From: Candidatus Thermoplasmatota archaeon
Lineage (GTDB): Archaea > Thermoplasmatota > E2 > DHVEG-1
Direction of reading: 5' to 3'
DNA: 37,289 nt
Assembly: GCA_038884455.1 (NCBI GenBank)
Contig: JAWABU010000016.1
Span: 1-37,289 of the forward strand
Shown here: positions 12,911 through 36,644 of the stretch, one piece after another
Layout: each line of letters opens with the position of its first letter
Position numbering within the stretch: the first letter of the stretch is position 1
Made by a program: the position numbers and the translations under genes
The notes under the pieces: generated by a model
The model's input: the letters and a program-made list of their open reading frames with translations, nothing else
What the model was told of the DNA's origin: nothing
Databases searched by the model: none

Positions 12911-12946
12911 TTCGAATTTTTTCCAAATGTTCGAAATTTTTTTCAT
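12911..12946 (+). promoter_or_regulatory. tandem 17-bp operator element, copy 1
   Basis: The first unit, TTCGAATTTTTTCCAAA, starts at 12911 and the second (TTCGAAATTTTTTTCATAA) at 12930, a 19-bp period. The second unit has one extra base compared with other copies. An AT-rich TATA region (ATTATTTATTAA, about 12949-12960) follows directly, putting the transcript start near 12981, exactly at the first ATG. This copy serves the HAF/dockerin gene. Same element at 14690, 19406, 21798 and 23838. Confidence 0.8.
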
Positions 12947-12980: not shown

Positions 12981-14633
12981 ATGATACTAATGATACTAAT
13001 GAGACGAGGAAAAATTAAAATTTTAAGGAAAACACATATATCGTTAATAATATCACTACTACTTATTATTTTAAATGCATCTGTTTGGGGTCAAACAATT
13101 GAAATAAGAACACATCCTATATCTTATGATAATGATGAAGATTTAAAAAATTCAATTCTTTATGAAGAATCAATCACACAAACTTTTTCATATCCTTCTC
13201 ATTTGCCTATTTATGATTATACAATTGTTAACATTGCGTCGGCAGATTTTATTGCCGGATTAAATGATATCGGGCAGGTAGTTGGAAAGTATTCTAATCA
13301 TGCATGCCTTTGGAATTCTGTTCAAGATAATCCAACTCGCATTGATTTGGGAACACTTGGTGGTTCAACAAGTGAAGCATATCAGATCAACAATAAAGGA
13401 GTAATCATTGGACTATCACAAATACCTCCCTTTTATAAACGTGCTTTTGTTGTTAATCCAGAAGATACCAACAATGATGGAATGCCTGATGTTTGGTATC
13501 GAGATAGTAATGGTGATGGAAAAAATGATTTAATGCAGAATCTTGGTTTCATTAGATTTAATTATGATGGATCAATACCATGGGCAATTACTGCCTATGA
13601 TATTAATGATCATGGAGAAATAGTAGGAAAACAACACTATTGGAAAGGTAGTAGTACACAAGCGAGTCTCGCATTTAAGGTTTCTCCGATAGATTCTGAT
13701 TTGGATGGAAACCCAGATATCTGGTATCAAGATAGTAATGGTGATGGAAAAAATGATTTAATGCAGGAACTCCCTGCTTTAGGGCTTGATCCTTTTAATT
13801 CAAATATTTACCGAGATTGTGCAATGGCACGTTCAATCAACAATGCTGGAATTATTGTCGGTTCATCGTTTGTTGATTATGGATCTTGTTATGACCGGGC
13901 AGTATATTGGGATCAGAATGGTGTCCATGATCTTGGTTCATGGGTTCTTGATGGGGTATCGGTTGCATATGCAATCAATGATCAAAATCAGATTGTTGGT
14001 TATTCACAGGTTTACTATACTCAATCAGATACTAGAACATCAAGTGCTTTTCTCTGGGATCAAGAAAACGGCATGATTGATTTAGGAGTCCTCCAACGAG
14101 AAAGTGGAACAATAACAACCTGTGATAGTGTTGGTTTTGATATTAACAATAAAGGTCAAATTATTGGTCTCTGTACTGTTGGAGATGATGTACGAACTCT
14201 ATATTATTTTCTTTTGATTCCACTTGATACAAACCAAGACGGGCATCCAGATACTTGGTATTCCAATAGTAGCGGCCTCCCTCAAATGTTAGGCATCAAT
14301 GATTTAATGATTAAGATACAACATGTGCCAGGTCTTTCAATACTCTATTCTGTGTTTTACCTTAATAACAAGATGCAGATGACTGGCACCTATACATCTT
14401 ATGATGCAGTTTATTATTGTGTACTCATTCCGCATAAACTAGGGGATGTTAATCATGACGATGTAGTAAATTTTGATGATATTGATCCCTTTGTAGCAGC
14501 TATTGGAACAACAGAATATACTTTTCAAATGCTTTATCCATCGTGGAGATGGCATGCAGCTGATTGCAATAGGGATGGTTTTGTTGATTTTGCTGATATT
14601 GATCTATTTATTGGATTACTCTGTAATAATTAA
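12981..14633 (+). CDS. secreted HAF-repeat protein with C-terminal dockerin-type domain
   Basis: A protein of about 550 residues. After an N-terminal signal anchor (IILNASVWGQ end) it carries HAF-type repeats, seen as LGTLGGSTSEAYQINNKG, YAINDQNQIVGYS and DINNKGQIIGL. Interspersed are calcium-binding-like inserts of the form DTNNDGMPDVWYRDSNGDGKND. It ends in a two-copy dockerin type I pattern: GDVNHDDVVNFDDIDPF and ADCNRDGFVDFADIDLF. Dockerins bind cohesins in scaffolded complexes, but no cohesin is in view. An upstream ATG at 12927 lies inside the promoter element and is rejected; ATGs at 12981, 12990 and 12999 are all possible, with 12981 at the predicted transcript start. Base composition is visibly more AT-rich than the flanking metabolic genes. 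Confidence 0.8.
   Translation: MILMILMRRGKIKILRKTHISLIISLLLIILNASVWGQTIEIRTHPISYDNDEDLKNSILYEESITQTFSYPSHLPIYDYTIVNIASADFIAGLNDIGQVVGKYSNHACLWNSVQDNPTRIDLGTLGGSTSEAYQINNKGVIIGLSQIPPFYKRAFVVNPEDTNNDGMPDVWYRDSNGDGKNDLMQNLGFIRFNYDGSIPWAITAYDINDHGEIVGKQHYWKGSSTQASLAFKVSPIDSDLDGNPDIWYQDSNGDGKNDLMQELPALGLDPFNSNIYRDCAMARSINNAGIIVGSSFVDYGSCYDRAVYWDQNGVHDLGSWVLDGVSVAYAINDQNQIVGYSQVYYTQSDTRTSSAFLWDQENGMIDLGVLQRESGTITTCDSVGFDINNKGQIIGLCTVGDDVRTLYYFLLIPLDTNQDGHPDTWYSNSSGLPQMLGINDLMIKIQHVPGLSILYSVFYLNNKMQMTGTYTSYDAVYYCVLIPHKLGDVNHDDVVNFDDIDPFVAAIGTTEYTFQMLYPSWRWHAADCNRDGFVDFADIDLFIGLLCNN
13502..13766 (+). repeat. 37-bp perfect direct repeat inside the HAF/dockerin gene
   Basis: The 37 bases at 13502-13538 recur exactly at 13730-13766. 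Both encode the acidic segment DSNGDGKNDLMQ, preceded by related D-x-N/D-x-D-G-x-P-D loops. A third, degraded version of the protein motif (DTNQDGHPDTWYSN) occurs near 14227-14268. Identity at DNA level suggests recent duplication or gene conversion of a calcium-binding loop. Confidence 0.85.
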
Positions 14634-14689: not shown

Positions 14690-14725
14690 TTCGAATTTTT
14701 TCCAAACGTTCGATTTTTTTTCAAG
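14690..14725 (+). promoter_or_regulatory. tandem 17-bp operator element, copy 2
   Basis: TTCGAATTTTTTCCAAA begins at 14690 and TTCGATTTTTTTTCAAG at 14709; the pair has a 19-bp period with CG between units. A TATA box (GATATTTATAC, about 14729-14738) follows, predicting transcription from about 14759. This copy serves the PQQ/PKD gene at 14873 and, by operon logic, the gene at 17013. Confidence 0.85.
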
Positions 14726-16969: not shown

Positions 16970-17012
16970 ACCTCCATCATCTTCTCTACTTTTTAAAAAG
17001 GATGTGAAAAAA

Positions 17013-19334
17013 ATGAACAAAAAAATAATTATCAGCAGTATAAGTCTTGCAATCATGATGTTTCTTCCACTAACAACGGAGGCATCATTAGACGTTAAAA
17101 CAACAGATAATTTTTCTTTTTTTTCAGATATACAACAACCTGATAATCAAATAAAAAAACCACTTACTGTTGATGTATCATCATTTACCACAACACTTGC
17201 ATCAACAACACAAACACGAGCTAATCAAGCACCTGACTTTGCCTATGTCAAACTGCCAGCATTATTACAGTTTTCATATTATGATTATATGCCTGGGGGA
17301 TATTTGACGCATCCAATACGCTATCAAACCCTCAACGGCCATGGTCAGTATCTCACTTTCCAAGCGCAAAACACAATTACCGGTAATCGACGACAATACT
17401 TCTCATATATACCGGAAAGCTATTCACCTCAGACTGGTCTTATCACTGGTCTTGATGAAAAACAAGGATTCGGCACAATCGATATTCACCCAGCAACAGG
17501 AAATGCCATCGCAAGTTGGCATAAAACCGACTATACTACTGCAATTACCTATGATGATTTTGATACCACTGATACACCGGGTCATTGGAAAAACCCTCTG
17601 AACATTCCCTTAACACCATCCATGCAGTACATCTGGCCAATCATACAAGTAGGGCCATCACCTCAAGGGACAGGCTATGTTCGTATCTATCAAGTTTCAA
17701 ATAACGCTCAGCAACTCTCATCAGGTCTTCCCTGTGAAGATGTTCGCATCATGTATCTTGATGTACCAAACACCAATGGTGTTGATCTTTCAAGCATGCT
17801 TTCACTTTCAAACTGGCAAACTGTTACCGTGTTTTCAGAGTGGCGAGCAAAATCATGTCGACCATTCCAAGCTTTTGCTATTGACTATGCACATCCAGGA
17901 CGCGTAGCATTCATTGGTGTTGCCACCTATCTTGAAGGAGATCTTGGTGACATGCCGGTAGAAGAAGGAGCATTTGTCTGGGAATCATATGATTATGGTA
18001 CAACCTGGGATCCACAACATCTGTACTCAGATGGACCAACTGATTATTTCTACCGTGTTCAAAACCCAGGTTTCCAAGGTGCACCCACAGAGCTTGATGT
18101 AACTGCAGCTGGATACCACAGCACCGCAGTCTATGATATCGACGGTAACCTTCATTGGAGCTATATGCAATCGTATGGTTACTCAGATTCACAAGGTAGT
18201 TACTATTTTCCCTATTTTCTCCCACAGGCAGAAATGATCTGGAATGGTGCAAGTTTTACCTTTAGAGAAGTACCAGCACTCCAAGGAATTGATCCTTTAT
18301 CAGGACATACTGTCCCCTGGTCAAACGGCGTTCTTTACCCAACTATTACCTGGAGCACTTATCCAACCTCCTCGGGGGCGGATATCTTTCATGAAAACAC
18401 CCAGAAACAAGCGATAAACCAAGAAAGAAATTGGATGGTACACGTCTGGGTTGATGGAACCAAAAGCAAACTAGCCTCCGATGGTAATATGTCATATATA
18501 GAGTATCTCCAACGTCCAATTATTTCATGTTCAGTTTCAGGTGATAATGGAAAAACATGGTCTGAACCAATACCACTCACCGATGTTTTCAACCAAGAAT
18601 ATCCCTTCTATTCACAAATCACGGTCTATCCCTATATCAGTGATAAAATAATAGACCTTGGTGATAACTGGGGGTTACTGTCCATGTATTATTTCTCTGA
18701 TTGGTCATTTGGATCAAAAGTCCAAGGATCTGGAGATAATCTCGGCGGAGAAATCATGTACTGTGCTGTCAAAATTAAGTTCCCAGAACCAAGTCCATTA
18801 ACTGTTGATGCTCGGGGTCCATACACTGGTGAAACTGGTACACCGATACGTTTTGGTGGCGATGTTTTCGGTGGTATAGCACCCTATACGTATTCATGGA
18901 ATTTTGGGAACGGCCAGACATCAAATGAGAAAAACCCACAGTATACTTATATCACTCCGGGAACCTATACTGCGACCTTAACGGTTACGGATTCCTCAAA
19001 CCCGCCACAAACACAAAGCGACACAGCAACAGTAACAGTAACACAAGCTGAATGTCCAATCACCATCACAGTAACTGGTGGCATTGGACTTAGTTTGAAT
19101 ATCAAGAACACTGGTGATGTAACACTTTCAGATGTTGCATGGGATATCAATTTCACCGGTGGGTTCATCTTTCCAAAACAAAAATCTGGGACAATCGCAA
19201 CACTTCCAGCACAAACAGAAGAGACAATAAAGATATTTGTTCTCGGATTCGGAAAGACAACGATTACACTTCATGTAGGATGCGCAACAAAAGAACAACC
19301 AGCGACTGTTTTCCTTATATTTGTTAAAATATAA
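17013..19334 (+). CDS. secreted protein with Asp-box (sialidase-like) region, PKD domain and shared C-terminal domain
   Basis: A 773-residue exported protein. ATG 17013 begins a clear signal peptide (MNKKIIISSISLAIMMFLPL) and follows AAAGGATGTG; the longer reading from 16926 would overlap the previous gene. The central region contains two Asp-box-like motifs (YDYGTTWD; SGDNGKTWSEP), the signature of BNR/sialidase-fold propellers, though glycosidase activity cannot be claimed. A PKD domain follows (ARGPYTGETGTPIRF, YSWNFGNGQTS, YITPGTYTATLTVTD). The last ~90 residues match the C-terminal domain of the neighbouring propeller proteins (AWDINFTGG, SGTIATLPAQ, VLGFGKTTITL). It begins 43 bp after the preceding gene without its own operator and is probably cotranscribed with it. 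A hairpin terminator lies at 19366-19407. Confidence 0.75.
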   Translation: MNKKIIISSISLAIMMFLPLTTEASLDVKTTDNFSFFSDIQQPDNQIKKPLTVDVSSFTTTLASTTQTRANQAPDFAYVKLPALLQFSYYDYMPGGYLTHPIRYQTLNGHGQYLTFQAQNTITGNRRQYFSYIPESYSPQTGLITGLDEKQGFGTIDIHPATGNAIASWHKTDYTTAITYDDFDTTDTPGHWKNPLNIPLTPSMQYIWPIIQVGPSPQGTGYVRIYQVSNNAQQLSSGLPCEDVRIMYLDVPNTNGVDLSSMLSLSNWQTVTVFSEWRAKSCRPFQAFAIDYAHPGRVAFIGVATYLEGDLGDMPVEEGAFVWESYDYGTTWDPQHLYSDGPTDYFYRVQNPGFQGAPTELDVTAAGYHSTAVYDIDGNLHWSYMQSYGYSDSQGSYYFPYFLPQAEMIWNGASFTFREVPALQGIDPLSGHTVPWSNGVLYPTITWSTYPTSSGADIFHENTQKQAINQERNWMVHVWVDGTKSKLASDGNMSYIEYLQRPIISCSVSGDNGKTWSEPIPLTDVFNQEYPFYSQITVYPYISDKIIDLGDNWGLLSMYYFSDWSFGSKVQGSGDNLGGEIMYCAVKIKFPEPSPLTVDARGPYTGETGTPIRFGGDVFGGIAPYTYSWNFGNGQTSNEKNPQYTYITPGTYTATLTVTDSSNPPQTQSDTATVTVTQAECPITITVTGGIGLSLNIKNTGDVTLSDVAWDINFTGGFIFPKQKSGTIATLPAQTEETIKIFVLGFGKTTITLHVGCATKEQPATVFLIFVKI

Positions 19335-19365: not shown

Positions 19366-19407
19366 GTGTAGATATTTGTGTCAAATCTACACCTCTTCTT
19401 TTTTTTT
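19366..19407 (+). terminator. hairpin plus T-run terminator
   Basis: GTGTAGAT (19366-19373) and ATCTACAC (19385-19392) form a perfect 8-bp stem with an 11-base loop, followed by CTCTTC and a long T-run ending at the next operator. It should end the 14873-19334 transcript and separate it from the promoter at 19406. Confidence 0.6.
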
Positions 19408-19441
19408 CGAATTTTTTCCAAACGTTCGATTTTTTTTCAAG
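19406..19441 (+). promoter_or_regulatory. tandem 17-bp operator element, copy 3
   Basis: TTCGAATTTTTTCCAAA at 19406 and TTCGATTTTTTTTCAAG at 19425, base-for-base identical to copies 2 and 4 including the CG spacer. A TATA-like TTAAAATATT follows at about 19449-19458. It serves the second PQQ/PKD gene. Confidence 0.85.
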
Positions 19442-19504
19442 AAACTAGTTAAAATATTAATTTCATAAAAATCTACAATTAAAAAGATTTTTGTGGGGGA
19501 AAAC

Positions 19505-21772
19505 ATGAGAAATAAAATAATCATCTTATTGGTAAGCATTTGTTGTATATCTTCAACAGTGCTTGGTGCCGGCCTATTACAACAAGAATCAAATGATAAA
19601 AGACAAACATCTCTTTCTGATTGGTGGCCAATGTTTGGGCATGATGCAGCAAACACGCGGCTTTCTCAAACATCTGATTTTACTGCAGAAAATGCACGAG
19701 TCATCTGGAATTATCCGATTGGCATCATGGTTGGATCTTCACCTGTAGTCACTGATGATAAAGTATATATTGGAGTACAGGGGACTGGCCAGACCCTGAT
19801 CTGTATTGATGCATTGACAGGAAATCTCTTATGGCAGAATACAACATATCAAACAGTATATATGACGCCAACCATTGCTGATAACAAGGTTTACGTCGGA
19901 TCATATGATAAAAAAATATATTGTTTTGATGCAACTACCGGACAGCGGCTATGGGTATCAAGCATGATGGGCGATGTTCCTTATGGTCATTCACCCAAAA
20001 TCTACAATAACAACCTCCTAGTGGGTTCAAAAGATAAGAAACTGTGGTGTTTCAACATAAACACAGGTGCAACTCTCTGGACATCCCCTCCATTAGATGG
20101 ATGGGTTGGAACCACTGGTCTTTACAACGGCTATGTATATTTTGGTACATATAGCAGTAGCGGTGCTGCTGGAGGAACAGTATACTGTTTCGATGCAGAT
20201 CCTTCTGATGGAATTGATGAAGGAATCGATGATCCTACGAGTGCTACCTATGATTTAGTATGGAGTTATCAGACAGAGAATATCAAAATTACCTCTTCAC
20301 CAGCGATAAGTAATGATCGAGTGTACATTGCATCGCAAGATTCAAAAATCTATTGTTTTGATGCAACACCAGATGATAACAATGACGGCATCATTGATGC
20401 TTTAGATATTGATGAAGGTATCAATGATCCTGATCCTATCCCATCAACAAAATATGATATGATCTGGTCATATACCACAGGTGGAGCGATTGTCTCATCC
20501 CCAGCGCTTTTTACAAATCAAGTTTTTATTCCAGCAAATGACAAAAAATTATACTGCTTAAATGCAGAAACCGGCATCCTTATTTGGGAGAAAACACTTC
20601 CAGTGACAGCACCCTTAGTACAAGGATGTCCATCAATTTTTCAAACAGGAAAAATCATATTACCACTTGGTGCTGAAAAAAAACTCATCTGCCTTGATGC
20701 AAATAATTACGGACAAGAACTCTGGAATTATTCTTTCAATTACACCTCGATGAGCCAATCACCAGCAATTGGAACAGATGGCACCATCTACCTAGGTTTT
20801 CATACTTTGCTGCTTGCCTTTGGACCGAATAAAAAACCACAAACCCCACAGCAACCAAGCGGTCCAACTACCGGAATAGTTGGCGCCTCATATCAATTTT
20901 CAACGGTAGCAACAGACCCTGATGGAGATATGATACGATATGCATGGGATTGGGGCGATGGAACTCCTCTGCAATGGACAGCATATTATGCTTCTGGGAC
21001 TCCTGTTGAACTTTCTCATACCTATGAAACCGTCGGAACCTATCAAATAAAGGTGAAAGCACAAGACATTAATACTGGTGAAAGTGACTTTTCTGATCCT
21101 CTCGAAATCATCATTAGTAATACACCTCCAACTCAACCTGTTGTTACAGGTCCTCAGGAAGGACTGCCACAGACGACGTATACATTTATCGTGAGTGCGA
21201 CTGATGAAGATACTCATCAAATTCGATTTATCTGCGACTGGGGTGATGGGAGTCCTTTTATTTTGACTGAGTATGTTGATCCAGGAACACTCGTAAAAAT
21301 AACGCATGCATGGCAGCAGAAAGGAACCTACAACATCCGGGTAAAAGCAAACGATTCCTACGGTGCAGAAAGCCCCTGGTCAGACATAAAACCAATCACG
21401 ATTAAAGCCCCTGCAGAACTCAGCATTACTAATATTCATGGAGGCGGTTTCTTTGGTCAAGGATTCCTGACCATGTTTGGATTGAAAAAAATATTTGCTG
21501 ATCTGAGTAATACTGGTGAAACAGCAGCGTATAATATAACTTGGAAAATTATTTTGAGTGGTTCTGCAACAATCCTCAAAGGTCAAACACAAACAGGGAC
21601 ACTTCCACTTCTTGGACCTGGAGAAGAAAGTACCCTATTAAATGATCCTATCGTTGGTTTTGGATCGATCAATATTACGATTACTGCACAAGCAGAAAAC
21701 ACCGATGAAACACGAATAAAAACAACAGGATATCTCTTAGGACCACTGATCTATGTCAAGGAACTCCCATAA
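19505..21772 (+). CDS. secreted PQQ-like beta-propeller protein with PKD domains (paralogue of 14873)
   Basis: A 755-residue exported protein. ATG 19505 follows a GTGGGGGA stretch acting as ribosome site; the in-frame GTG at 19493 is part of that stretch and is not preferred. After the signal peptide comes LSDWWPMFGHDAANTRLS, then eight blade repeats (SSPVVTDDKVYIGV, SSPAISNDRVYIAS and others), two of which hold acidic inserts such as DEGINDPDP. Two PKD domains follow (ATDPDGDMIRYAWDWGDG; ATDEDTHQIRFICDWGDG). The C-terminal domain (about 640-755) repeats the pattern of its neighbours: TWKIILSGS, TGTLPLLGPG, IVGFGSINITI. Likely a cell-surface or extracellular binding protein. Confidence 0.85.
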   Translation: MRNKIIILLVSICCISSTVLGAGLLQQESNDKRQTSLSDWWPMFGHDAANTRLSQTSDFTAENARVIWNYPIGIMVGSSPVVTDDKVYIGVQGTGQTLICIDALTGNLLWQNTTYQTVYMTPTIADNKVYVGSYDKKIYCFDATTGQRLWVSSMMGDVPYGHSPKIYNNNLLVGSKDKKLWCFNINTGATLWTSPPLDGWVGTTGLYNGYVYFGTYSSSGAAGGTVYCFDADPSDGIDEGIDDPTSATYDLVWSYQTENIKITSSPAISNDRVYIASQDSKIYCFDATPDDNNDGIIDALDIDEGINDPDPIPSTKYDMIWSYTTGGAIVSSPALFTNQVFIPANDKKLYCLNAETGILIWEKTLPVTAPLVQGCPSIFQTGKIILPLGAEKKLICLDANNYGQELWNYSFNYTSMSQSPAIGTDGTIYLGFHTLLLAFGPNKKPQTPQQPSGPTTGIVGASYQFSTVATDPDGDMIRYAWDWGDGTPLQWTAYYASGTPVELSHTYETVGTYQIKVKAQDINTGESDFSDPLEIIISNTPPTQPVVTGPQEGLPQTTYTFIVSATDEDTHQIRFICDWGDGSPFILTEYVDPGTLVKITHAWQQKGTYNIRVKANDSYGAESPWSDIKPITIKAPAELSITNIHGGGFFGQGFLTMFGLKKIFADLSNTGETAAYNITWKIILSGSATILKGQTQTGTLPLLGPGEESTLLNDPIVGFGSINITITAQAENTDETRIKTTGYLLGPLIYVKELP

Positions 21773-21797: not shown

Positions 21798-21833
21798 TTC
21801 GAATTTTTTCCAAACGTTCGATTTTTTTTCAAG
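21798..21833 (+). promoter_or_regulatory. tandem 17-bp operator element, copy 4
   Basis: TTCGAATTTTTTCCAAA at 21798 and TTCGATTTTTTTTCAAG at 21817, identical to copies 2 and 3. A TATA region AATATTAAATATA follows at about 21837-21849. It serves the PD40-like/dockerin gene at 21886. Confidence 0.85.
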
Positions 21834-21885: not shown

Positions 21886-23649
21886 ATGATAACAAGAAAA
21901 ACACAGATAGGTTTTTGTTTTTTGTTAGCTGGGTTGTTCTTTTTGCAAATATCTTTGTCTGTTACAACTAGTCAAAGTACAATCAGCATTAATAGTGAAA
22001 AAGAACAACAAGAACAATTATTATTTTCTCCGATGGATTTTACTAGATACCCATATACTGATCGTATCAGTGTAAATGCAAATGGTTCACAAGGAATATA
22101 CAGTATGGGAGGATCTAAAGTATCAGTGATTTCAGCAAATGGACGTTATATCGCATTTTCAAGTAATGTACTTGCACCAAATCCCTCATCTAATTGGTAT
22201 GAACGGTGGCCGTATCATGTCTATGTTCGCGATAGAGATTACGATAACAATGGAATCTTTGATGAACCCGGTCCAAACAAGACAACAACAATCCTTATTA
22301 GTAAAACAGATGCAGGGGTTCCAGGAAATCTTGATAGCGGATATAGTGAATACGGTACAGAAGTTATTGGAAATATCAATGGTATTGATATCTCTAGTGA
22401 TGGTCGTTATGTTGCGTTTATTAGTGCGGCTACAAATTTTTATGGTTCGCAAGCAACCGGTGGCCCTTTCCATGTGTATGTTGTAGATCGTGATGTTGAT
22501 AACGATAGTTGTTTCGATGAAATTGGTTTTACCCATCTTCAACTTATCGACGAAGATTATTACCAAAATTGTCCAGGATATCAAGGTGCAACAGGAGTTT
22601 CAATTTCAGATAATGGACTGTATGTTCTTTTTGGTTCTACGTCAAGAGATATGATGCCTGATAATTATTCTCATTATCTTACATCAAAGCAACTTATTTT
22701 ACAAAATCGAAGCCGAATTAAAGGTCAATTTGGGTGGCGTATCCGATTGACTCTTCCAGATTATGAAAATGCTGATAGTTTTTCTATATCAAAAAATGGT
22801 AAGTATGTTGTTTATGAAAAGCACATTGTTTTTCCCCAATCAGATAAACTTTTGTTATACAACCGGCTTACTAACCAAATTCAAAGACTAGATATTAACC
22901 AAACTGGGCAGTTTGCCAATGCTCAATGTACCAATCCTACGATCTCTGAAAATGGCAGATTTATCTGTTTTTTAAGTTGTGCAAGTAATCTTGTTTCAGG
23001 TGATACCAATGGGCAGCCTACCCTTGACTATGGTAACGATGTTTTTGTTCTCGACCGAGATGCAAATAATAACGGAATATTTGATGAACAAAACGATAGA
23101 AAGATCGTAAGAGTCAGTGTTAACTCAAATGGTGAACAACAGCACGGTGTACCAAGCTCAACAACAATTGGGTATTCAGCTCAAATTTCAGCAGATGGGC
23201 GATATGTCTGTTTTACTAGCTCAGCTTCAAATCTTGTTCCTAATGATACCAATGATGTAACAGATGTATTTTTACATGATTGTATACTTGGAACGACACA
23301 TCTGATGAGTGTTAGCACAAGCGGCGTACAAAGTCTATTCTCTTCTGATTTACCGTCGGTTTCAAGATATGGAATGGATATCGTGTTTACCACAAAAGGG
23401 TCTTTTATTCCTGGTGATACCAATGAATTAAAGGATATTTACTTGCGATCAAATTATCGTTTAGGTGATGTTAACAACGATAAACGAGTAGATTTTTTTG
23501 ATATTGATCCTTTTGTAGCAGCATTAAACGGTCCAGATAGTTTTTATTCACAATATCCGATGGGTATGTTTCTTGCAGCTGATACAAATCAAGATGGAAC
23601 AATAGATTTTCTTGATATCGATCTATTTGTCAATCTTTTCCAAAATTAA
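21886..23649 (+). CDS. secreted PD40/TolB-like propeller protein with C-terminal dockerin-type domain
   Basis: A 587-residue exported protein with an N-terminal signal peptide (GFCFLLAGLFFLQISLSVTT). It has repeats of the type ISADGRYVCFTSSASNLVPN and ISSDGRYVAFISAATNF, the WD40-like PD40 pattern (S-x-D-G-R-Y-V-x-F). These are joined by calcium-loop-like inserts (DRDYDNNGIFDEPG; DRDANNNGIFDEQ). The last ~60 residues form a dockerin type I pair (GDVNNDKRVDFFDIDPF; ADTNQDGTIDFLDIDLF), closely similar to the end of the protein at 12981-14633. Shine-Dalgarno GAGGT at about 21872-21876. A nine-T run right after the stop is a likely terminator. The partner cohesin, if any, is not in this window. 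Confidence 0.8.
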   Translation: MITRKTQIGFCFLLAGLFFLQISLSVTTSQSTISINSEKEQQEQLLFSPMDFTRYPYTDRISVNANGSQGIYSMGGSKVSVISANGRYIAFSSNVLAPNPSSNWYERWPYHVYVRDRDYDNNGIFDEPGPNKTTTILISKTDAGVPGNLDSGYSEYGTEVIGNINGIDISSDGRYVAFISAATNFYGSQATGGPFHVYVVDRDVDNDSCFDEIGFTHLQLIDEDYYQNCPGYQGATGVSISDNGLYVLFGSTSRDMMPDNYSHYLTSKQLILQNRSRIKGQFGWRIRLTLPDYENADSFSISKNGKYVVYEKHIVFPQSDKLLLYNRLTNQIQRLDINQTGQFANAQCTNPTISENGRFICFLSCASNLVSGDTNGQPTLDYGNDVFVLDRDANNNGIFDEQNDRKIVRVSVNSNGEQQHGVPSSTTIGYSAQISADGRYVCFTSSASNLVPNDTNDVTDVFLHDCILGTTHLMSVSTSGVQSLFSSDLPSVSRYGMDIVFTTKGSFIPGDTNELKDIYLRSNYRLGDVNNDKRVDFFDIDPFVAALNGPDSFYSQYPMGMFLAADTNQDGTIDFLDIDLFVNLFQN

Positions 23650-23658
23650 TTTTTTTTT
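23650..23658 (+). terminator. oligo-T terminator
   Basis: An uninterrupted run of nine T residues overlaps and follows the stop codon of the dockerin protein gene. The region from here to 23837 is AT-rich and shows no gene or clear structure. Confidence 0.5.
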
Positions 23659-23837: not shown

Positions 23838-23873
23838 TTCGAATTTTTTCCAAATATTCGAATTTTTTTCAAA
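23838..23873 (+). promoter_or_regulatory. tandem 17-bp operator element, copy 5
   Basis: TTCGAATTTTTTCCAAA at 23838 and TTCGAATTTTTTTCAAA at 23857, again a 19-bp period, with TA between units. It is followed by ATATATATATTAAG (about 23873-23886) as TATA region. It serves the small exported-protein genes beginning at 23920. Confidence 0.8.
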
Positions 23874-23919: not shown

Positions 23920-24168
23920 ATGAACACAAAACAAAATAAAAAATTATGTACGCTCGTATTTTTTGGTGTAATGTTTCAAACAATGATTCTATCATCATAT
24001 CTTATCCCTATAAATACAACTGTTGTTGGTTGTGACGGAGATCATAATCATATAGATCATAATCATATCGATTCTACAATTGCTGATGTAAGTAACCAAC
24101 ATTTTGATTATTTTTCTCTTGACACAATCCAAGGATTTTACCTTTTATTCGATTCAAAACTAAATTAA
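23920..24168 (+). CDS. small exported His/Asp-rich protein
   Basis: An 82-residue protein with a hydrophobic N-terminal signal (TLVFFGVMFQTMILSSYLIP). A short mature part contains the His/Asp cluster CDGDHNHIDHNHIDS, a plausible metal-binding patch, and the C-terminus is FDYFSLDTIQGFYLLFDSKLN. No family is recognised. It has a Shine-Dalgarno GAGGA just upstream of the ATG and carries copy 5 of the tandem operator, so it is very probably expressed and co-regulated with the large propeller and dockerin proteins. It could be a truncated remnant of a larger protein, but no continuing frame is seen. Confidence 0.6.
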   Translation: MNTKQNKKLCTLVFFGVMFQTMILSSYLIPINTTVVGCDGDHNHIDHNHIDSTIADVSNQHFDYFSLDTIQGFYLLFDSKLN

Positions 24169-24230
24169 CATTTTCTTTGATCAACTGAAAAAAAAGAAGA
24201 GAAGGATATATGAAAATAGGAGGAAAAAAT

Positions 24231-24536
24231 ATGAAATGGAATACTACAATAAAAACCATATTATGTATAGTAGGGGTTGTATTGAGCATGACACTGCTCA
24301 TAAGAGAAACAACGTTTATCACTGCAGCACAGCTGCCACCAGGCCCGATACAACCGTACGGAACAGGGCCAACTGGCGGTCTAGTATGGGTTCGAGTCTG
24401 GGATGTTAATACCACTGTAAAAGCACCTCATCATCCATGGGGGTATTATTGGGATCAGGGCAATTACATTCTCATGCCGAATGGCTATTGGTATACATAT
24501 CGTTGGGTTTTAATGGTTATCGAGGTTGACCATTAA
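24231..24536 (+). CDS. small exported aromatic-rich protein
   Basis: A 101-residue protein with a signal peptide (IKTILCIVGVVLSMTLLI) and a mature region rich in Trp, Tyr and Pro (PHHPWGYYWDQGNYILM, GYWYTYRW). No family recognised. The start is set by AGGAGG at 24218-24223, placed seven bases before ATG 24231; an earlier in-frame ATG at 24210 precedes that site and is rejected. It follows the His-rich gene by about 60 bp without its own operator and may be cotranscribed. Confidence 0.6.
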   Translation: MKWNTTIKTILCIVGVVLSMTLLIRETTFITAAQLPPGPIQPYGTGPTGGLVWVRVWDVNTTVKAPHHPWGYYWDQGNYILMPNGYWYTYRWVLMVIEVDH

Positions 24537-24706: not shown

Positions 24707-24970
24707 ATGAAAAAAAACAAGAAAAATTTAAATCGAATATTGGGCAGTTGTATACTTATTTGTTTCATTGTACTCTTAATTCAACCAACTGGTTTTTCAG
24801 AGCAGTCAGGCTATGCAACTCTCATTATCTATAAAAATAATATTGATAATGTTGTTATCAAAGAAGGTATTGTACCATATGATAGTAATATGTCAGCATA
24901 CCAAGTTGGTTATGCAATCTATGACCGTTACACACATCAGTTCATTGGCATCAGACTAATATTAACATAA
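24707..24970 (+). CDS. small exported or membrane-anchored protein, unknown function
   Basis: An 87-residue protein with a basic N-terminus and one hydrophobic segment (RILGSCILICFIVLLIQPTG), followed by a short extracytoplasmic part (GYATLIIYKNNIDNVVIK). No family recognised. The upstream 24537-24706 spacer holds no gene; it includes a small hairpin (AAGGG, six-base loop, CCCTT, about 24660-24675), and an AGGAT ribosome-site candidate lies near the ATG. Probably part of the secreted-protein island. Confidence 0.5.
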   Translation: MKKNKKNLNRILGSCILICFIVLLIQPTGFSEQSGYATLIIYKNNIDNVVIKEGIVPYDSNMSAYQVGYAIYDRYTHQFIGIRLILT

Positions 24971-25003
24971 ACAATTAATTGATTTTCCAACAGCTAGAGA
25001 TAA

Positions 25004-25014
25004 ATTATTTATAC
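25004..25014 (+). promoter_or_regulatory. TATA box of the propeller/membrane/winged-helix operon
   Basis: ATTATTTATAC resembles the TATTTATAC boxes at 9910 and 14730. Transcription would start near 25035, leaving a leader of about 100 bases before ATG 25138. No copy of the tandem operator is found here, unlike the other propeller genes. Confidence 0.45.
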
Positions 25015-25137: not shown

Positions 25138-27690
25138 ATGCAAAAAAAAAGAACAATACTGTTATTAGTACTAGTCTTAGCGCAAAGTATTTTTCTAAAT
25201 ACGATATCAGCTGATAACGAAACTGATGTACAATGGCCAATGTATCATCATGATGCAGCTCATCAGGGTTACACTACGTCTTCATCACCGAATAACATAC
25301 TTAAATGGAGCACCGAAATCAATGCAAGTCAAATTCTTTCATCACCAGCAGTAGTTGATGGTTATGTTTATTTTGGGGCATCTGATGGAAAACTCTACTG
25401 CCTCGCTGCACGCAATGGCCAGATCATTTGGACCTATACTACAGCTGGAGCAATAAAATCATCTCCTGCTGTTGTTTCAAATAAAGTCTATTTCGGCTCA
25501 ACCGACGGCGTAGTATATTGTCTTGACGCAGCAACTGGTTCTTTGATTTGGTCGTATAAAACACAGGATATGATCGATGTCTCGTCACCTGTCGTTGCCG
25601 GCAATCGAGTCTATATCGGTTCTTGTGATATGCAGATATATTGTTTAGATGCATTTGATGGGAGATGTATCTGGAGTTTTCAAACACAAGGAGTAATTTA
25701 TTCCTCTCCTGCTGTTGTCAATAACCGAGTATACATAGGTTCAAATGATAAAAATATGTATTGCCTAGATGCAATAGGAAACGGAGATGGAACAACCAAT
25801 ACTATTTGGATATATACCGCAGGACATTCCATTCGTACCACTCCAACTATTGCCAGTGGTAAAGTCTTTTTTGGGTGCTATGATAATCACATTTATTGTG
25901 TTGATGCACAGGGTGATGGAACCGGCGGAACAACACTCCTATGGAAATATCGATATGGTGATTTCAGGATGCGATCGTCTCCAGCTTTTTTTAATGACAA
26001 AGTGTTCGTCTATGGTTTTGACAGTGTGTATTGCTTAGATGCAAACGGGCTGAGCAACGGAACGGGAAAGCTTATCTGGAAAACATCGCTTGGAACCATG
26101 GGTGCTCCAGCGTATTCTTCACCTGCAATAACCAATGATTTTGTCTATGTTGGAGACAGTGTTGGGTTAAAATTTTACTGTCTTTACATCAACAACGGTT
26201 CAATTGCCTGGAGCGTAGAAAAAGGAACAGTGTATACATCTCCAGCAATTGTTGACGGTTCAGTTTTTTTCGCAGCAACACCACAATACAGCTCCCGTAC
26301 AATCTTCTACTGTTATGGCAGATTAAATAATGCACCATCAACACCAAATCAACCAAACGGACCAGCCACAGGTTCAGTAAATACCGATATCTCTTTTACT
26401 ATTTCTTCAGTTATGGATCCTGATGGTGATACGGTTGAATATCAATTCGACTGGGGTGATGGATCCTATAGTTTCTGGGGTACTGATACCTCAGCATCAC
26501 ATCGATGGGTACAACAGGGAACCTATGCTGTTCGAATCCGTGCACGCGATAAACCACCCCAACATGAAAGCAGCTGGTCAGATCCTATTTTGATTCATAT
26601 TCAAACTCAAAAACCAAAACTATCTATCTCATGTCCTTCATCGATTATTGCGGGAGGAGAATTCACCGTGATTGTCACGGCAGATGCGATACCAGTACAA
26701 GCAGCATCGGTTGAATTCAACAACCAGATACTTCCAACAGATACATTTGGAAAAGCAACATTTACTGCACCCCTGGTCTCAAAAGTAACAGATTTTCTGA
26801 TATCTGTATCTCATCCGGAATATACCGCAAGTTCGAAGATGGTAAAAGTTTTAAAAGAGAAACAACGACAAGGATGGATTTACGGTGTTGTTACCGATGG
26901 AACTATGGTAGTATCTAATGTTTCAATACAAATCACCAACGAATATCAAAGGTGGACGACCACAACGGATTCCGAAGGTGTATATTATCGAGCAGTTCCT
27001 CCTGGAATTTACACCGTTACCGCGATCAAATCACAGTATCTATCAACATCTTATCCACAGATTGAAATTGTTGAAAATGTTGCAATTGATCTTAATTTTA
27101 ATCTGCAACGGATAATAAGTCCAGAGCTACCGTCAACGAGTACAGATGATACTAAGGCCTTGGTAGAAAAAGTTGTACAAACTGCCATTAATGAAGGATA
27201 TGTTGCAGCAAAGATATTACTTTTTTCAACAGAGGAAAAAACATCCCCTTTCATTGAATACTATCTTGATGAATTTCAGGTCAAACCTCAGGAAACTGAT
27301 AAACTACTGTCTTTTACTGTAGCTGGGGATGAGAATTCATCGAAAACATTTTTCCTTGTTTTTATCGGAAAGAATATCACAACACATCCTCATGATTTAA
27401 TCGTTCATTTTGACGATCACATTCTTGAAAAAATGTCGATCGATGAGTTTTTACATCCTGAACAAACACAGGGAGTAAAATACCTCATTCTAACTACGGA
27501 TGAGGGAAACTATGTTGTTATTCATGTTGATACTTTTAGTGAACATACGATTACGATTGCTACAAATCTTCTGACAGGAATTACAATAGTCGTTTTATAC
27601 ATCCTGTTTTCGGTACTCATTGGATTCGTTCTTATCTGTCCTGCGGTTCTGAGTTCATTGTACACGACATATTTGAAGAAAAGGAGATAA
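25138..27690 (+). CDS. membrane-anchored PQQ-like propeller protein with PKD and carboxypeptidase-regulatory-like domains
   Basis: An 850-residue protein. After a signal sequence (TILLLVLVLAQSIFLNTISA) come VQWPMYHHDAAHQGYT and eight propeller blades (SSPAVVDGYVYFGA, SSPAVVSNKVYFGS, SSPAVVNNRVYIGS and others). Then a PKD domain (VMDPDGDTVEYQFDWGDGS), an Ig-like segment, a carboxypeptidase-regulatory-like fold (GWIYGVVTDGTMVVSNVSI, PPGIYTVTAIK), a conserved C-terminal region, and one transmembrane helix near the end (TIVVLYILFSVLIGFVLIC) with a basic tail. It lacks the C-terminal domain of its secreted paralogues. Start candidates 25102, 25129, 25132 and 25138 exist; GAGGGG at 25123-25128 fits 25138. 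It is followed at 2 bp by a membrane protein and then a DNA-binding protein, suggesting surface sensing (inference). Confidence 0.8.
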   Translation: MQKKRTILLLVLVLAQSIFLNTISADNETDVQWPMYHHDAAHQGYTTSSSPNNILKWSTEINASQILSSPAVVDGYVYFGASDGKLYCLAARNGQIIWTYTTAGAIKSSPAVVSNKVYFGSTDGVVYCLDAATGSLIWSYKTQDMIDVSSPVVAGNRVYIGSCDMQIYCLDAFDGRCIWSFQTQGVIYSSPAVVNNRVYIGSNDKNMYCLDAIGNGDGTTNTIWIYTAGHSIRTTPTIASGKVFFGCYDNHIYCVDAQGDGTGGTTLLWKYRYGDFRMRSSPAFFNDKVFVYGFDSVYCLDANGLSNGTGKLIWKTSLGTMGAPAYSSPAITNDFVYVGDSVGLKFYCLYINNGSIAWSVEKGTVYTSPAIVDGSVFFAATPQYSSRTIFYCYGRLNNAPSTPNQPNGPATGSVNTDISFTISSVMDPDGDTVEYQFDWGDGSYSFWGTDTSASHRWVQQGTYAVRIRARDKPPQHESSWSDPILIHIQTQKPKLSISCPSSIIAGGEFTVIVTADAIPVQAASVEFNNQILPTDTFGKATFTAPLVSKVTDFLISVSHPEYTASSKMVKVLKEKQRQGWIYGVVTDGTMVVSNVSIQITNEYQRWTTTTDSEGVYYRAVPPGIYTVTAIKSQYLSTSYPQIEIVENVAIDLNFNLQRIISPELPSTSTDDTKALVEKVVQTAINEGYVAAKILLFSTEEKTSPFIEYYLDEFQVKPQETDKLLSFTVAGDENSSKTFFLVFIGKNITTHPHDLIVHFDDHILEKMSIDEFLHPEQTQGVKYLILTTDEGNYVVIHVDTFSEHTITIATNLLTGITIVVLYILFSVLIGFVLICPAVLSSLYTTYLKKRR

Positions 27691-27692
27691 AT

Positions 27693-27980
27693 ATGCAACT
27701 GATCAGTATTTTTGTCAATGCTTGTATAACCATATTATCAGCCGGGCTTCTCATTATATCTTTACTCAGTTATAAAAAAAAGAACAACAGAAACCTCCTT
27801 TTTTTAACCATAGCATTCATATTCTTCTTTTTCAAAGGCATCATCTTAAGTTTATCCCTGATGTATCTCACGTTTCAAGAAATTATCTTAGACCCACTTT
27901 TTGGGTTTTTTGATGTCCTAATTCTTGCTTTTCTCTTCATATCAACCCTAAAGAGACAACGCTATGTCGAAACAGCTTGA
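27693..27980 (+). CDS. small three-helix membrane protein
   Basis: A 95-residue protein with about three transmembrane helices (residues roughly 4-26, 35-58 and 66-88) separated by short basic loops. Small proteins of this sort are often encoded just before winged-helix regulators in archaea, where they are suspected membrane partners; no specific family is claimed. It begins 2 bp after the propeller gene and overlaps the next gene by 17 bp, so all three are cotranscribed and probably translationally coupled. Confidence 0.7.
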   Translation: MQLISIFVNACITILSAGLLIISLLSYKKKNNRNLLFLTIAFIFFFFKGIILSLSLMYLTFQEIILDPLFGFFDVLILAFLFISTLKRQRYVETA

Positions 27981-28698
27981 ATACCATAAACAAAAAATCT
28001 ACGTATGTCTTCAAGAGCATCCAGGATTACATATCAGTAAAATAGCAGAGACGATCGGCATCAATATCTCATTGTTAAAAATCATTATTGAAGAAATGAT
28101 AAACGATGGGTTGTTGCTGGCTTTTGAGGATGCAGGGTTTAAACGATATTATGTCAATGGCCAACATGAGAAACCTCATGCTCAAAAAATGAATGATATC
28201 CGGAAAAAAATCTACATGCTCGTTGCCGAACAGCCGGGTTTAAACCTTACAACGATTGCAGAAATGCTCAACATGCGGATATCATTAGCAGAATATCATC
28301 TTTTTCTCTTAGAAAAAAATGGTTTGATCCAAGGTCAGAAAGATACAGGGTTTAAACGATATTATGTCAAAGATGCGACGATTCGATCAGAAGATCGAAT
28401 ATTATTAGGATTACTTCGACAAGAAATCCCGCTAAAGATCATCCTCCTTCTTTTGAAGCATAAAACCTTGCAACACAAAGATATTTTGCAACATTTTGAT
28501 TTAGCACCGTCAACATTAACCTATCATATTAATAAGCTGTTAAAAGAAGGCATTATTGATGTGCAAACCTTTGGCACTGAAAAAGGATATTTTTTAAAAA
28601 ATAAGACCGCTATTGTTGCCTTTCTTACCAAATATAATCTTAATAAAATGATTGAAACTTTTTCAGATACATGGGATGATCTATCGTATGATATTTAA
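27964..28698 (+). CDS. triple winged-helix transcriptional regulator
   Basis: A 244-residue protein with three winged-helix units in a row. Unit 1 (about 8-66) and unit 2 (about 78-136) are clear internal duplicates: KIYVCLQEHPGLHISKIAE and KIYMLVAEQPGLNLTTIAE, each ending in GFKRYYV. Unit 3 (about 155-212) is ArsR/MarR-like: HKDILQHFDLAPSTLTYHIN as recognition helix region and GTEKGYFLK as wing. There is no ligand-binding or kinase domain. The gene overlaps a small membrane protein gene in an operon led by the membrane-anchored propeller. It is the only DNA-binding protein inside or beside the secreted-protein island, and so a natural candidate for reading the tandem operator there. That link is untested. 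Confidence 0.75.
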   Translation: MSKQLEYHKQKIYVCLQEHPGLHISKIAETIGINISLLKIIIEEMINDGLLLAFEDAGFKRYYVNGQHEKPHAQKMNDIRKKIYMLVAEQPGLNLTTIAEMLNMRISLAEYHLFLLEKNGLIQGQKDTGFKRYYVKDATIRSEDRILLGLLRQEIPLKIILLLLKHKTLQHKDILQHFDLAPSTLTYHINKLLKEGIIDVQTFGTEKGYFLKNKTAIVAFLTKYNLNKMIETFSDTWDDLSYDI

Positions 28699-33814: not shown

Positions 33815-35386
33815 TCATCCCCCTGGATCAATAGTATACAACACAGTACCAAAGTATTTTGATGTAAGTAGATGATACTCTTTTACTACACCAAATAAGG
33901 CAAGCCAGATAAGGATATCTGCCAGAATCCACAAATTGTAGAGTAACACAGAGAACATGAAGTAAAATAATCGTATCAAATAGTTCTTTGATGTTGTTTT
34001 TGGGAGATAGGAGTGTTTCTTTACTCTGTAGCTTGTTTCTATTCCCCATCTTTTTCCATAGAGAGCAGACAGTCTTTCAGATAAGTTGACATCGTTCTCA
34101 TTGTATTCTTCATTGGTGGCAAACCCTCGCTTCTCCTTAACACCATTCTCTAGTTCCTCTTCTACAATAACCAAGTTAAAAGTAACATCTTTCATTTCAA
34201 AACCCGTTATTATCGAAGGTGCAGTAGTGACTCTCAATGTATCCTTGACCGTTGAATATTGGGTACAAGGCATCAGATATTTTAGATTGAAACTATCGAG
34301 TACTTTGATTGCGTTAGAATCGCAGAATCCACGGTCAACATATACTCTTCGTATCTTGATGCGTTCCAATGCATAATTCAATAGTTTTCTAAGAGTGGCA
34401 TCTTTGGTATCAAATGGTCCTATAGGTAACGCAAGAAGGGTGAAGCGTCTTCCTGCTTCTACGATATTTATAGTGGCGAACTTGTAGCATTTTGATGTTC
34501 CACGATCAGGTTCTTTACCGACAACCATCGGTGTACCACGGTCGCCGTAGAAGTACCATTCCGTGAAATCAATAGCAACATCATCGTGTTTTCTGATGTC
34601 GAAGAGGTTTATTTTTCGTGCCATCTCCCAGACAATTTCGAATAATGTAATGAACATTTGATGAATTTTATCCTTGTCAGAGTATTGCTTTAGATGATAT
34701 AATAATGTGTCTGCATCAGGGTTATCCTCTCCTCGTAGTTCCTTGTATGTTTTACTTCCGTTCTCAGCGAAATCACGAGTCATCCCCATATGAATAAGGA
34801 GATCCAAGAATTGATTCTTCTTGTATAAAGTGTTGTTTTTCAAATTCAGATTGATGAATGGTGCAAACCGTTTCTTGAACAACCTACAGATTTCTTTGGT
34901 TTTGTCGTTCTTTTTGAGTCTTTGATTTCGTTCTTTTGTCTCCTTTATTTGTTTCTCTGGTGTGAAGGTTTTAACATCAAGGAGAATACCAAATTTTTCC
35001 GAAATCTCTTCTATCTTTTTTGCTGTGAAATCAATGAGTTCTTTTGTTTCATCATCTAAGATGTGGTTAACAAAATAGCCTATCTGTGTTCGGTCTGGTG
35101 TCTTACTAAAGCCCAGTTTGAATTTTTCAGAAGGATTTCTGTTGAGATATTTTGTTAGTTTGGTATGGAATTTTATGCCTTTGAGTTTCTGGAATAAAAC
35201 AAGTTTCAAGATTGATTCGTAGGAGAATTTGATCTTTCGATATTTGCGAACTTGGAACAAAGTTACATTGAATGCTTTTATGAAGTCAGCTATCTTGATA
35301 TTCTTTTTGTCTTTGAACTTCTCGAAGGTTTTATAAATCTCCAGCTCTATGTTTTCTCTGGAGATAGTTCGATTGCCTGGCCGCAT
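33815..35386 (-). CDS. DDE transposase, IS4-superfamily (ISH3-like)
   Basis: A 523-residue transposase that appears full length. A likely DDE triad is D273 (VAIDFTEWYFYGD), D351 (RRVYVDRGFCDSNAI) and E450 (YGKRWGIETSYRVKK), followed by TTSKNYLIRLFYFMFSVLLYN. The R-W-x-I-E-x-x-Y-R/K segment is the Y-(2)-R-(3)-E-(6)-K-like signature region of IS4-type enzymes. The N-terminal half is lysine-rich and probably binds DNA ends. ATG 35386 is the natural start. No internal stop or frameshift is seen, so it may be active. Lysine-rich, AT-rich coding and its location upstream of conserved ribosomal genes indicate acquisition. Confidence 0.88.
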   Translation of the reverse strand: MRPGNRTISRENIELEIYKTFEKFKDKKNIKIADFIKAFNVTLFQVRKYRKIKFSYESILKLVLFQKLKGIKFHTKLTKYLNRNPSEKFKLGFSKTPDRTQIGYFVNHILDDETKELIDFTAKKIEEISEKFGILLDVKTFTPEKQIKETKERNQRLKKNDKTKEICRLFKKRFAPFINLNLKNNTLYKKNQFLDLLIHMGMTRDFAENGSKTYKELRGEDNPDADTLLYHLKQYSDKDKIHQMFITLFEIVWEMARKINLFDIRKHDDVAIDFTEWYFYGDRGTPMVVGKEPDRGTSKCYKFATINIVEAGRRFTLLALPIGPFDTKDATLRKLLNYALERIKIRRVYVDRGFCDSNAIKVLDSFNLKYLMPCTQYSTVKDTLRVTTAPSIITGFEMKDVTFNLVIVEEELENGVKEKRGFATNEEYNENDVNLSERLSALYGKRWGIETSYRVKKHSYLPKTTSKNYLIRLFYFMFSVLLYNLWILADILIWLALFGVVKEYHLLTSKYFGTVLYTIDPGG

Positions 35387-35403
35387 TCGATTGTCTCCAG
35401 CCT

Positions 35404-35426
35404 AAAGGGAGATACAAGCTCCCTTT
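35404..35426. repeat. perfect 8-bp inverted repeat near the transposase start
   Basis: AAAGGGAG (35404-35411) and CTCCCTTT (35419-35426) form a hairpin with a seven-base loop, 17 bp upstream of the transposase ATG. It could sit in the transposase leader and limit its translation, or mark an end of the element. Confidence 0.6.
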
Positions 35427-35472
35427 CGGCACTTATACCCTTATACACCTATATATCTTATGGATATATAAA

Positions 35473-35501
35473 TTTTACCCTTAAGGGTAAAAGTATATAA
35501 A
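35473..35501 (+). promoter_or_regulatory. 20-bp palindromic operator abutting a TATA box
   Basis: TTTTACCCTTAAGGGTAAAA at 35473-35492 is a perfect palindrome and is followed immediately by GTATATAAA (35493-35501), a TATA box about 35 bp before ATG 35530. Its position at the BRE/TATA edge suits a repressor, most simply the ribbon-helix-helix-like protein encoded next (inference). It also lies in the region where the IS right end should be. Confidence 0.6.
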
Positions 35502-35529
35502 CCTCTATTTCGATTAATTGTTGATAACC

Positions 35530-35727
35530 ATGGGAGCGATCAAAATAATTCTTCCAGATGACCTTGAAGAGGAATTTCGTAGTGAGGTCTTTAAAAGCAA
35601 AGGGATGAAAAAAGGTAATATTACACTGGCTATAGAAGAGGCTGTAAAGATGTGGATTGAATCAGAACGACAAAAGCGGAGTGATGCAGCGAAAAAAGCT
35701 TGGGAAACAAGAAGTAAAAAACAATAG
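35530..35727 (+). CDS. small ribbon-helix-helix-like DNA-binding protein
   Basis: A 65-residue protein. The start MGAIKIILPDDLEEEFRSEV looks like the ribbon strand and first helix of RHH (CopG/Arc-type) proteins, followed by KGNITLAIEEAVKMWIES as second helix and a basic tail (KRSDAAKKAWETRSKKQ). RHH dimers bind palindromic operators; the 20-bp palindrome right upstream is a suitable target. ATG 35530 is preferred over an in-frame TTG at 35518. The next gene, TcmP-like, begins 17 bp after the stop and is probably cotranscribed. Confidence 0.65.
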   Translation: MGAIKIILPDDLEEEFRSEVFKSKGMKKGNITLAIEEAVKMWIESERQKRSDAAKKAWETRSKKQ

Positions 35728-35744
35728 AAATAACAAAGATAGAT

Positions 35745-36644
35745 ATGGGTGAAGTTGAAAAACACACTCAAATGAAGCATCGTTTACTTGGTAATTATCT
35801 TAAAATTTGTACAAGCAGGGTGAAAAGCCAGAGAAGCCATGATTTTGTAGTTGTTGATTTATACGCAAATGATGGAGTTGCATATTGGCCCGATGGAGAC
35901 GAAATGTGGGAAGGATCTGCACAAATAATAGCAAAATGGGTATCAACAGCTGGAGAAAGAGCTTATTGCATTTTAAATGAAAGAGATAAAACGCTTATTG
36001 AAAAACTAAAAGAAAATACTAAACAATATCAAAGCGTCATAAAAGAGATATTAACAGAGGATGCTAACGTAATTCACAAATATATCTTAAAAAAATATAT
36101 ACCACTCGATGCACATTCAATCTTTTTATTAGATCCATATAATCATAGTGAGTTAAAATTCTCAACTATCAAAACTATTGCTGAACATTGTAAAGAAGAT
36201 ATTTATCGTGGGGAATCTTTTATTAGACGACCTGAACTGATAATTAACCTACCTACTTTTACAATCATAAAAAGTAAAACTCAAAATCCCCAACTCATTA
36301 CTGATTTTCTAGGTACAGATGAATTGATACAAGAGTTGGAAAAAGCAGAGAAAGAGAATGCATCGCAACCAGAAACCATATTGAATGTATTTAAAAAACA
36401 GTTAAAACGATATTATCCTGAAGATGGAATAATCCCTATTGAAATAAGAACATTAGAAGCAAATGCCCCCATTTATTATCTTATTTTTACTGCTACACAT
36501 CCTTTAGCAAAAACAATTCAAAGAACATTTGAGGATTGGGTAAAAAAGACGCTAAAAGAGTTTCGTAGAGAAGGATTTGCATTGAAGCTTATCGCAGAAG
36601 CAAAGAGAAAACATTTAACCTCTCTTGACAAATGGAATAACTGA
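35745..36644 (+). CDS. TcmP-like three-Cys-motif partner protein
   Basis: A 299-residue protein resembling the TcmP family. An N-terminal KHRLLGNYLKICTSR helix comes first, then a Rossmann-like start VVVDLYANDGVAYW in place of the usual YIDLFAGPG, a GSAQIIAKW segment, the acidic NERDKTLIEKL, and SIFLLDPYNHSELKFSTIKTI corresponding to the fLDPfG region. It then has PELIINLPTF and a basic C-terminus. TcmP proteins are named for being encoded beside radical SAM-type proteins with a cysteine motif; their biochemical function is unknown, though the fold is methyltransferase-like. Here a radical SAM gene lies convergently 7 bp away, and an RHH-like regulator is directly upstream. The glycine loop is divergent (DLYANDG). 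Confidence 0.65.
   Translation: MGEVEKHTQMKHRLLGNYLKICTSRVKSQRSHDFVVVDLYANDGVAYWPDGDEMWEGSAQIIAKWVSTAGERAYCILNERDKTLIEKLKENTKQYQSVIKEILTEDANVIHKYILKKYIPLDAHSIFLLDPYNHSELKFSTIKTIAEHCKEDIYRGESFIRRPELIINLPTFTIIKSKTQNPQLITDFLGTDELIQELEKAEKENASQPETILNVFKKQLKRYYPEDGIIPIEIRTLEANAPIYYLIFTATHPLAKTIQRTFEDWVKKTLKEFRREGFALKLIAEAKRKHLTSLDKWNN

Follow-up and report, generated by a model that had tools for sequence, protein, structure and literature searches.

A three-gene locus of a Thermoplasmatota archaeon as a candidate surface-coupled regulatory module with its own operator family

Organization of the operon

The window analyzed here is a stretch of 37,289 bp from a Candidatus Thermoplasmatota archaeon (GCA_038884455.1, contig JAWABU010000016.1, positions 1 to 37,289, forward strand). 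Three genes on its plus strand encode an anchored surface protein (25138..27690), a 95-residue protein with three transmembrane (TM) helices (3-TM protein, 27693..27980), and a regulator with three winged helices (wHTH protein, 27964..28698), which is related to HTH_HVO_0163_N and to ArsR/MarR-like wings. The first two genes are separated by a 2-bp gap and the last two overlap by 17 bp, in keeping with the earlier sequence-only reading of one tightly coupled operon; this coupling is the tightest among the copies in the window's family. Translation plausibly starts at 25138, which is preceded by GAGGGG and shared with homologues; the open reading frame (ORF) could also start at 25102.

The anchored protein and its juxtamembrane domain

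The anchored protein (850 residues) is composed of a signal helix, eight PQQ-type repeats, PKD and CarboxypepD_reg domains, a juxtamembrane FSxH domain, and a C-terminal TM helix followed by a short basic tail. The eight repeats, together with a single signal helix and a single TM helix at the C terminus, agree with its earlier description as a membrane-anchored, eight-bladed PQQ/PKD protein. The propeller is of the BamB-like/PQQ type, and Foldseek places it with BamB; its score of 67 bits, against an NCBIfam cut-off of 480, does not identify a PQQ-dependent dehydrogenase. The outer part had been called paralogous to the secreted proteins that stand under the tandem operator described below, and it is indeed 44% identical over 520 residues to the product of 14873-16969, a gene behind such an operator, the similarity covering the propeller/PKD part. 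The secreted paralogues have no TM anchor.

Judged by sequence comparison, the defining feature of the anchored protein is not the propeller but a conserved juxtamembrane domain, which the sequence-only reading had missed. The ectodomains are variable; the approximately 150 residues preceding the TM helix are conserved and end in PHFSxH (DTFSEH in the window). We refer to this juxtamembrane domain with its terminal FSxH motif (PHFSxH in most cases) as the HFS domain. In the window it occupies 27148..27564 of the plus strand (approximately residues 671 to 809 of 850), and the motif TFSEH (PHFSxH in most relatives) lies at 27532..27546 (+). Among 28 sequences, the Ser of the motif is invariant and the F/Y and H/Y positions are nearly so, while 5 of the 28 have lost the His before the Phe, among them the window's protein, in which Thr takes its place. 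AlphaFold models of six sequences (pLDDT of about 60 to 77 in this region) predict that the FS motif falls on the turn joining the final two strands ahead of the TM helix. The domain is found phylum-wide, in 124 of 390 genomes, and HFS domains coincide with modules in the window's genome (3 of 3) and in the Lake Pavin sediment genome G011 (7 of 7). Sequence searches returned no Pfam family and no credible PDB match for the HFS domain, and its assignment to a Pfam or PDB family was rejected, since none matched.

The 3-TM protein and the winged-helix regulator

Three TM helices were found in the 95-residue protein, as had been read from its sequence. It scored 15.2 bits against DUF7471 (PF24283; cut-off, 27), which leaves it outside that family, and 10 of 20 relatives matched DUF7471 at an E value of ≤0.05 (best, 2e-5); by these profile matches, the 3-TM protein is a distant, sub-threshold relative of DUF7471.

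The wHTH protein belongs to HTH_HVO_0163_N (PF24266; 49.2 bits; cut-off, 31), and the three winged-helix units proposed earlier were recovered by AlphaFold at residues 3 to 64, 71 to 135, and 142 to 211 (pLDDT, 83). It has three winged helices and no TM helix, the TM parts being encoded in separate genes, and it is accordingly not a one-component transmembrane regulator, in which HTH and TM share one chain. The third winged helix (28387..28596, +) carries the recognition helix APSTLTYH; its Thr and the operator's G4 covary. Between wings 1 and 2 (28101-28157 versus 28314-28370), the DNA is 75% identical over 57 nt, which suggests that the extra wing arose by duplication of wing 2. The extra wing, which is N-terminal, is restricted to one clade (tree support, 99/96).

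Conservation of the module

Searches covered 80 genomes class-wide and 390 phylum-wide. Within the class, wHTH relatives were found in 37 and 3-TM relatives in 35 of the 80 genomes, mostly adjacent to each other, and pairs of the two genes turn up repeatedly throughout the phylum. The suggestion that the three-gene order might be conserved in related archaea held: anchored, 3-TM, and wHTH genes follow one another in every family copy with enough contig, with gaps of about 18 to 70 bp (anchored/3-TM) and 3 to 11 bp (3-TM/wHTH), and each 3-TM/wHTH pair of the window's family comes with one anchored protein. Three modules are present in the window's genome (contigs C16, which is the window, C18, and C51), seven in G011, and four in G032. 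Phylum-wide, the HFS domain and the 3-TM gene occur together in 75 of 390 genomes (124 and 103 in all; Fisher P = 2e-24, related genomes not being independent).

Two variants of the layout were seen. In families f8 and f9, the HFS domain is encoded by a separate, convergent neighbor of the wHTH gene; in six family genomes (type ii modules), a different TM-anchored protein of 346 to 452 residues occupies the HFS slot. This other protein, with SYPRG..I.HDPK.G before the TM helix, is encoded at L077, L079, L080, L081, L082, and L088, together with the same operator family.

The tandem operator and its geometry

The exact 36-bp tandem operator has five copies in the 1.70-Mb genome, all in the window and on the plus strand. 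They lie at 12911..12946, before a secreted dockerin-like gene (true start downstream of 12927); at 14690..14725, before the secreted propeller/PKD gene 14873-16969 (and the overlapping 16926-19334); at 19406..19441, before the secreted propeller/PKD gene 19493-21772; at 21798..21833, before the secreted dockerin-like gene 21886-23649; and at 23838..23873, before the small secreted genes 23920-24168, 24210-24536, and perhaps 24707-24970. Dockerin-like Ca-binding repeats (GDVNxD...FxDIDxF; window positions 14440-14617 and 23462-23650) end the secreted proteins 12927-14633 and 21886-23649 and gave one weak Dockerin_1 match.

The unit of the operator family is TTYGA-N7-YMAA, with TTCGA 21 bp before the TATA box and copies 19 bp apart. 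Uniqueness of the operator to the window's genome was rejected: it is true only of the 36-bp pattern in exact form, and units of the family are widespread. As the sequence-only reading stated, the exact element is absent from the promoter of the operon itself. This promoter contains a degenerate single unit (TTCCA; 24985..25011, +) exactly 21 bp before TATTTA, with 3 mismatches in the 11 specified letters, a fit equaled by 4 of 178 background TATTTA sites.

Promoters around each module were compared all-against-all. At most modules, a TATA-adjacent element is common to the anchored gene and/or neighboring secreted genes, and its spelling is locus specific: TTGTTCGAATCTCTTGTGAAAATTCGAAACTCCTGAAATAAAGTATTTA at G011 C133, TTGTTCGATAGTTTCCAAATAAAGTATTTA at G011 C13, and, in the window's genome, forms with TTTGA at C51 and with CTCAA at C18. 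Two modules, G011 C102 and G032 C97, have no clear common operator. In the module loci, TTCGA precedes a TATA-like hexamer by 21 bp (23 cases) or 40 bp (18 cases), TATA not being required, and successive TTCGA sequences are 19 bp apart in 29 cases (next commonest spacing, 4 cases); neither the 21/40-bp nor the 19-bp peaks were found in background DNA of the window's genome. The window's tandem operator follows the same 21-bp/19-bp geometry. An N-terminal TM or signal segment is encoded by 31 of 33 genes behind sites, versus 26 of 59 background genes.

Genome-wide occurrence was counted by pattern searches. Among the matches listed, zero-mismatch sites occur only in module-holding genomes, most of them on module contigs; the looser pattern (at most 1 mismatch) gave 8 sites in the window's genome, 4 of them at modules, and its reversed control gave 2. 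Sites distant from any module are present on C17 and C52 of the window's genome and on C65 and C134 of G011. Those of the window's genome (G000) are canonical TTCGA units at C17:22829 (L200:7830; tandem) and C52:470 (L199:496), possibly controlled at a distance by the window's regulator; downstream of the one on C17 is a 616-residue ORF without a signal segment. On G011 C134 (L202), secreted genes of 330, 2107, and 1772 residues share the tandem TTCGAAAATCGTTAAAATATTCTAATTTCATCAAATAAAGTATTTA; the 20 kb read there contain no module. Separately, the promoter comparison detected, from both sides, a perfect 20-bp palindrome, TTTTACCCTTAAGGGTAAAA, in 35387-35744, between the divergent genes 33815-35386 (−) and 35745-36644 (+).

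Linkage of regulator and operator

That the regulator and the operator belong together, as the sequence-only reading proposed, was upheld on four grounds: a common geometry, a locus spelling shared by module and neighbors, joint loss, and covariation of recognition helix and operator. Families f8 and f9 and genomes G006 and G007, in which the HFS gene is transcribed separately, have TT[CA]GA exactly 21 bp before TATA in 14 of 14 HFS promoters, and the unit is found at none of 119 other genes of these loci. A matrix trained on this set scored out-of-class HFS promoters above controls (P = 4e-6), with 12 of 21 exceeding the 95th percentile. When the out-of-class HFS promoters were counted by hand, the unit and the 3-TM gene were both present in 11 cases, both absent in 8, and discordant in 2.

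The spelling of the operator also follows the protein. Where the last wing has the recognition-helix Thr ([SAG]T[LVI]), position 4 of the operator unit is G in 34 of 34 modules; the 7 modules without Thr all have CTCAA, GTCCA, CTAAA, or TTTAA, their operators being picked by eye from the common elements. On the tree this covariation amounts to 3 to 4 independent changes, all concordant, a number with which a sign test cannot reach 0.05; it is suggestive of the wHTH protein as the reader of the operator. Taken with the operator geometry and the family test, it makes the regulator-operator link well supported by comparison, and the wHTH protein is likely the operator reader.

One part of the earlier proposal, that duplicated wings read the duplicated operator, was not sustained. 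Matching extra wings to tandem operators failed at the two-wing regulators of L073 (first copy), L077, L079, L080, L081, L084, L155, and L174, which have tandem operators too. Because two-wing regulators have tandem operators and the third wing occurs in one clade only, the wings do not count operator repeats.

Proposed mechanism and alternatives

Comparison across genomes shows the co-inheritance of a receptor-like protein, a 3-TM protein, and a wHTH protein with apparently cognate operators before secreted genes. The reading that we favor, and consider probable, is a surface-coupled regulatory module whose wHTH protein binds tandem units and controls the genes for anchored and secreted proteins. 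The wHTH protein would bind TTYGA-N7-YMAA units, mostly in tandem, at a constant distance of 21 bp ahead of the TATA box, and would most likely activate transcription, activation rather than repression being suggested by the position of the sites only. Its targets would include the module's own anchored-protein gene (weakly in the window, via the degenerate unit) and neighboring genes for secreted propeller, PKD, and dockerin-like proteins. We infer that the anchored protein is a receptor signaling through the 3-TM protein: its changeable ectodomain would meet a ligand or surface, the conserved FSxH juxtamembrane domain and TM helix would relay the receptor state, and the 3-TM protein would tether or free the regulator at the membrane. 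As each paralogous module has its own operator spelling, the circuits in one cell would stay separate. Several observations weigh against this reading: the sites distant from any module, the missing good site at the window's own operon, the two modules with no clear common operator, the six genomes with another anchored protein in the slot, and the small number of independent Thr/G changes.

The main rival dispenses with the receptor. The 3-TM/wHTH pair alone could be a switch that senses the state of the membrane itself (tension, lipid, or redox), and the anchored protein merely its target, as the main product, co-transcribed and autoregulated. Consistent with this, 28 genomes have the 3-TM gene without HFS proteins, in f8 and f9 the HFS gene stands apart as a convergent gene that is mainly a target, and haloarchaeal plasmids carry an HVO_0163-type wHTH gene beside small membrane-protein genes with no such anchored protein. 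However, each module has one anchored protein in which the juxtamembrane domain is conserved under a variable ectodomain, whereas the secreted paralogues are unanchored, and type ii modules swap in another TM-anchored protein rather than losing the slot; we regard a switch made of the pair alone as rather unlikely.

Still less probable is that some other protein, be it a TFB paralogue or an unlinked regulator, reads the operator and that the module is merely one target. Sites on module-free contigs (C17, C52, G011 C134, and G028 C30) would fit such a reader, but the operator spelling tracks the recognition helix of the linked wHTH protein, paralogous modules in one cell differ in spelling, and the presence or absence of the unit in out-of-class HFS promoters matches that of the 3-TM gene (11 and 8 cases, respectively; 2 exceptions). 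The idea that the repeats are remnants of recent duplication among secreted-protein genes, with no regulatory meaning, draws on neighboring promoters that are near-identical over 100 to 180 bp (e.g., at G011 C133), but it is very improbable and is largely refuted by the fixed 21-bp and 19-bp spacing, by the occurrence of the unit in unrelated genes of other orders, and by conservation that is limited to the operator in most loci.

Beyond the favored surface-coupled module, we tentatively raise a broader possibility: a signaling system new to archaea and ancient in the phylum, with an FSxH (perhaps self-cleaving) receptor, a 3-TM transducer, a wHTH activator, and a TATA-phased operator code. 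In sediment archaea this system would have multiplied, so that a single cell runs several insulated circuits, each with its own ligand and secreted cluster. Apart from two-component systems and a few regulators bound to the membrane, little is known of how archaea signal from surface to promoter, and a module conserved across the phylum with its own DNA switch looks like an undescribed archaeal way to tune the cell surface. The module supplies regulator, operator, and candidate specificity residue together and is thus directly testable in vitro. It also offers a function-level handle on the unannotated secretomes of uncultured sediment archaea, because secreted genes can be allotted to their module by the spelling of the operator.

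Comparison with known systems

No description of the module was found in the literature searched, which covered papers open without subscription, so that its absence there is not proof. The CsmR regulator of Haloferax was considered as a relative and rejected, no link to the module's family being found. The HFS motif recalls the self-cleaving ZU5-type domains, since the autoproteolytic ZU5/FIIND domains of CARD8 and NLRP1 (PMC3210808) likewise have a short F-S motif in a beta-rich domain; in our models, the HFS motif marks the turn from the penultimate to the last strand ahead of the TM helix. By contrast, 5 of 28 copies here, the window's included, have lost the preceding His; there is no sequence match, and the search for similarity to solved members gave no credible PDB hit that would place the HFS domain in ZU5/GAIN.

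Haloarchaeal HVO_0163-type loci share the wHTH family and have a small membrane-protein gene adjacent or one gene away; in one plasmid case, DUF7471 lies one gene away from the wHTH gene. In contrast to the module, no HFS-anchored protein was seen at these loci, and the neighbors are of the PepSY, NosL, and ApbE types. No published function was found for this pair in the literature searched. Four haloarchaeal plasmid loci (L226-L229), with an HVO_0163-type wHTH, a small membrane protein, and PepSY, NosL/NosD, or ApbE-type neighbors, are possibly a redox-linked branch of the pair. The membrane-bound one-component regulators ArnR/ArnR1 of Sulfolobus and the transmembrane transcription regulators combine HTH and TM in one chain (PMC6396743, PMC10269533); as proposed for our module, transcription control of archaeal surface structures is coupled to the membrane, but here the HTH and TM functions are split over three proteins.

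The nearest functional analogue, without homology, would be RsgI/SigI of Clostridium thermocellum, in which several paralogous membrane-anchored surface sensors are each tied to a regulator of secreted proteins (PMC12203970). RsgI/SigI is a bacterial sigma/anti-sigma system made of two components, whereas the archaeal module consists of a wHTH protein, a 3-TM protein of its own, and an anchored protein with an unrelated juxtamembrane domain; none of the three module proteins contains a sigma factor or anti-sigma domain, and no homology to RsgI/SigI was found. What the two appear to share is the layout: paralogous anchored surface proteins in one cell, each with a regulator of secreted proteins.
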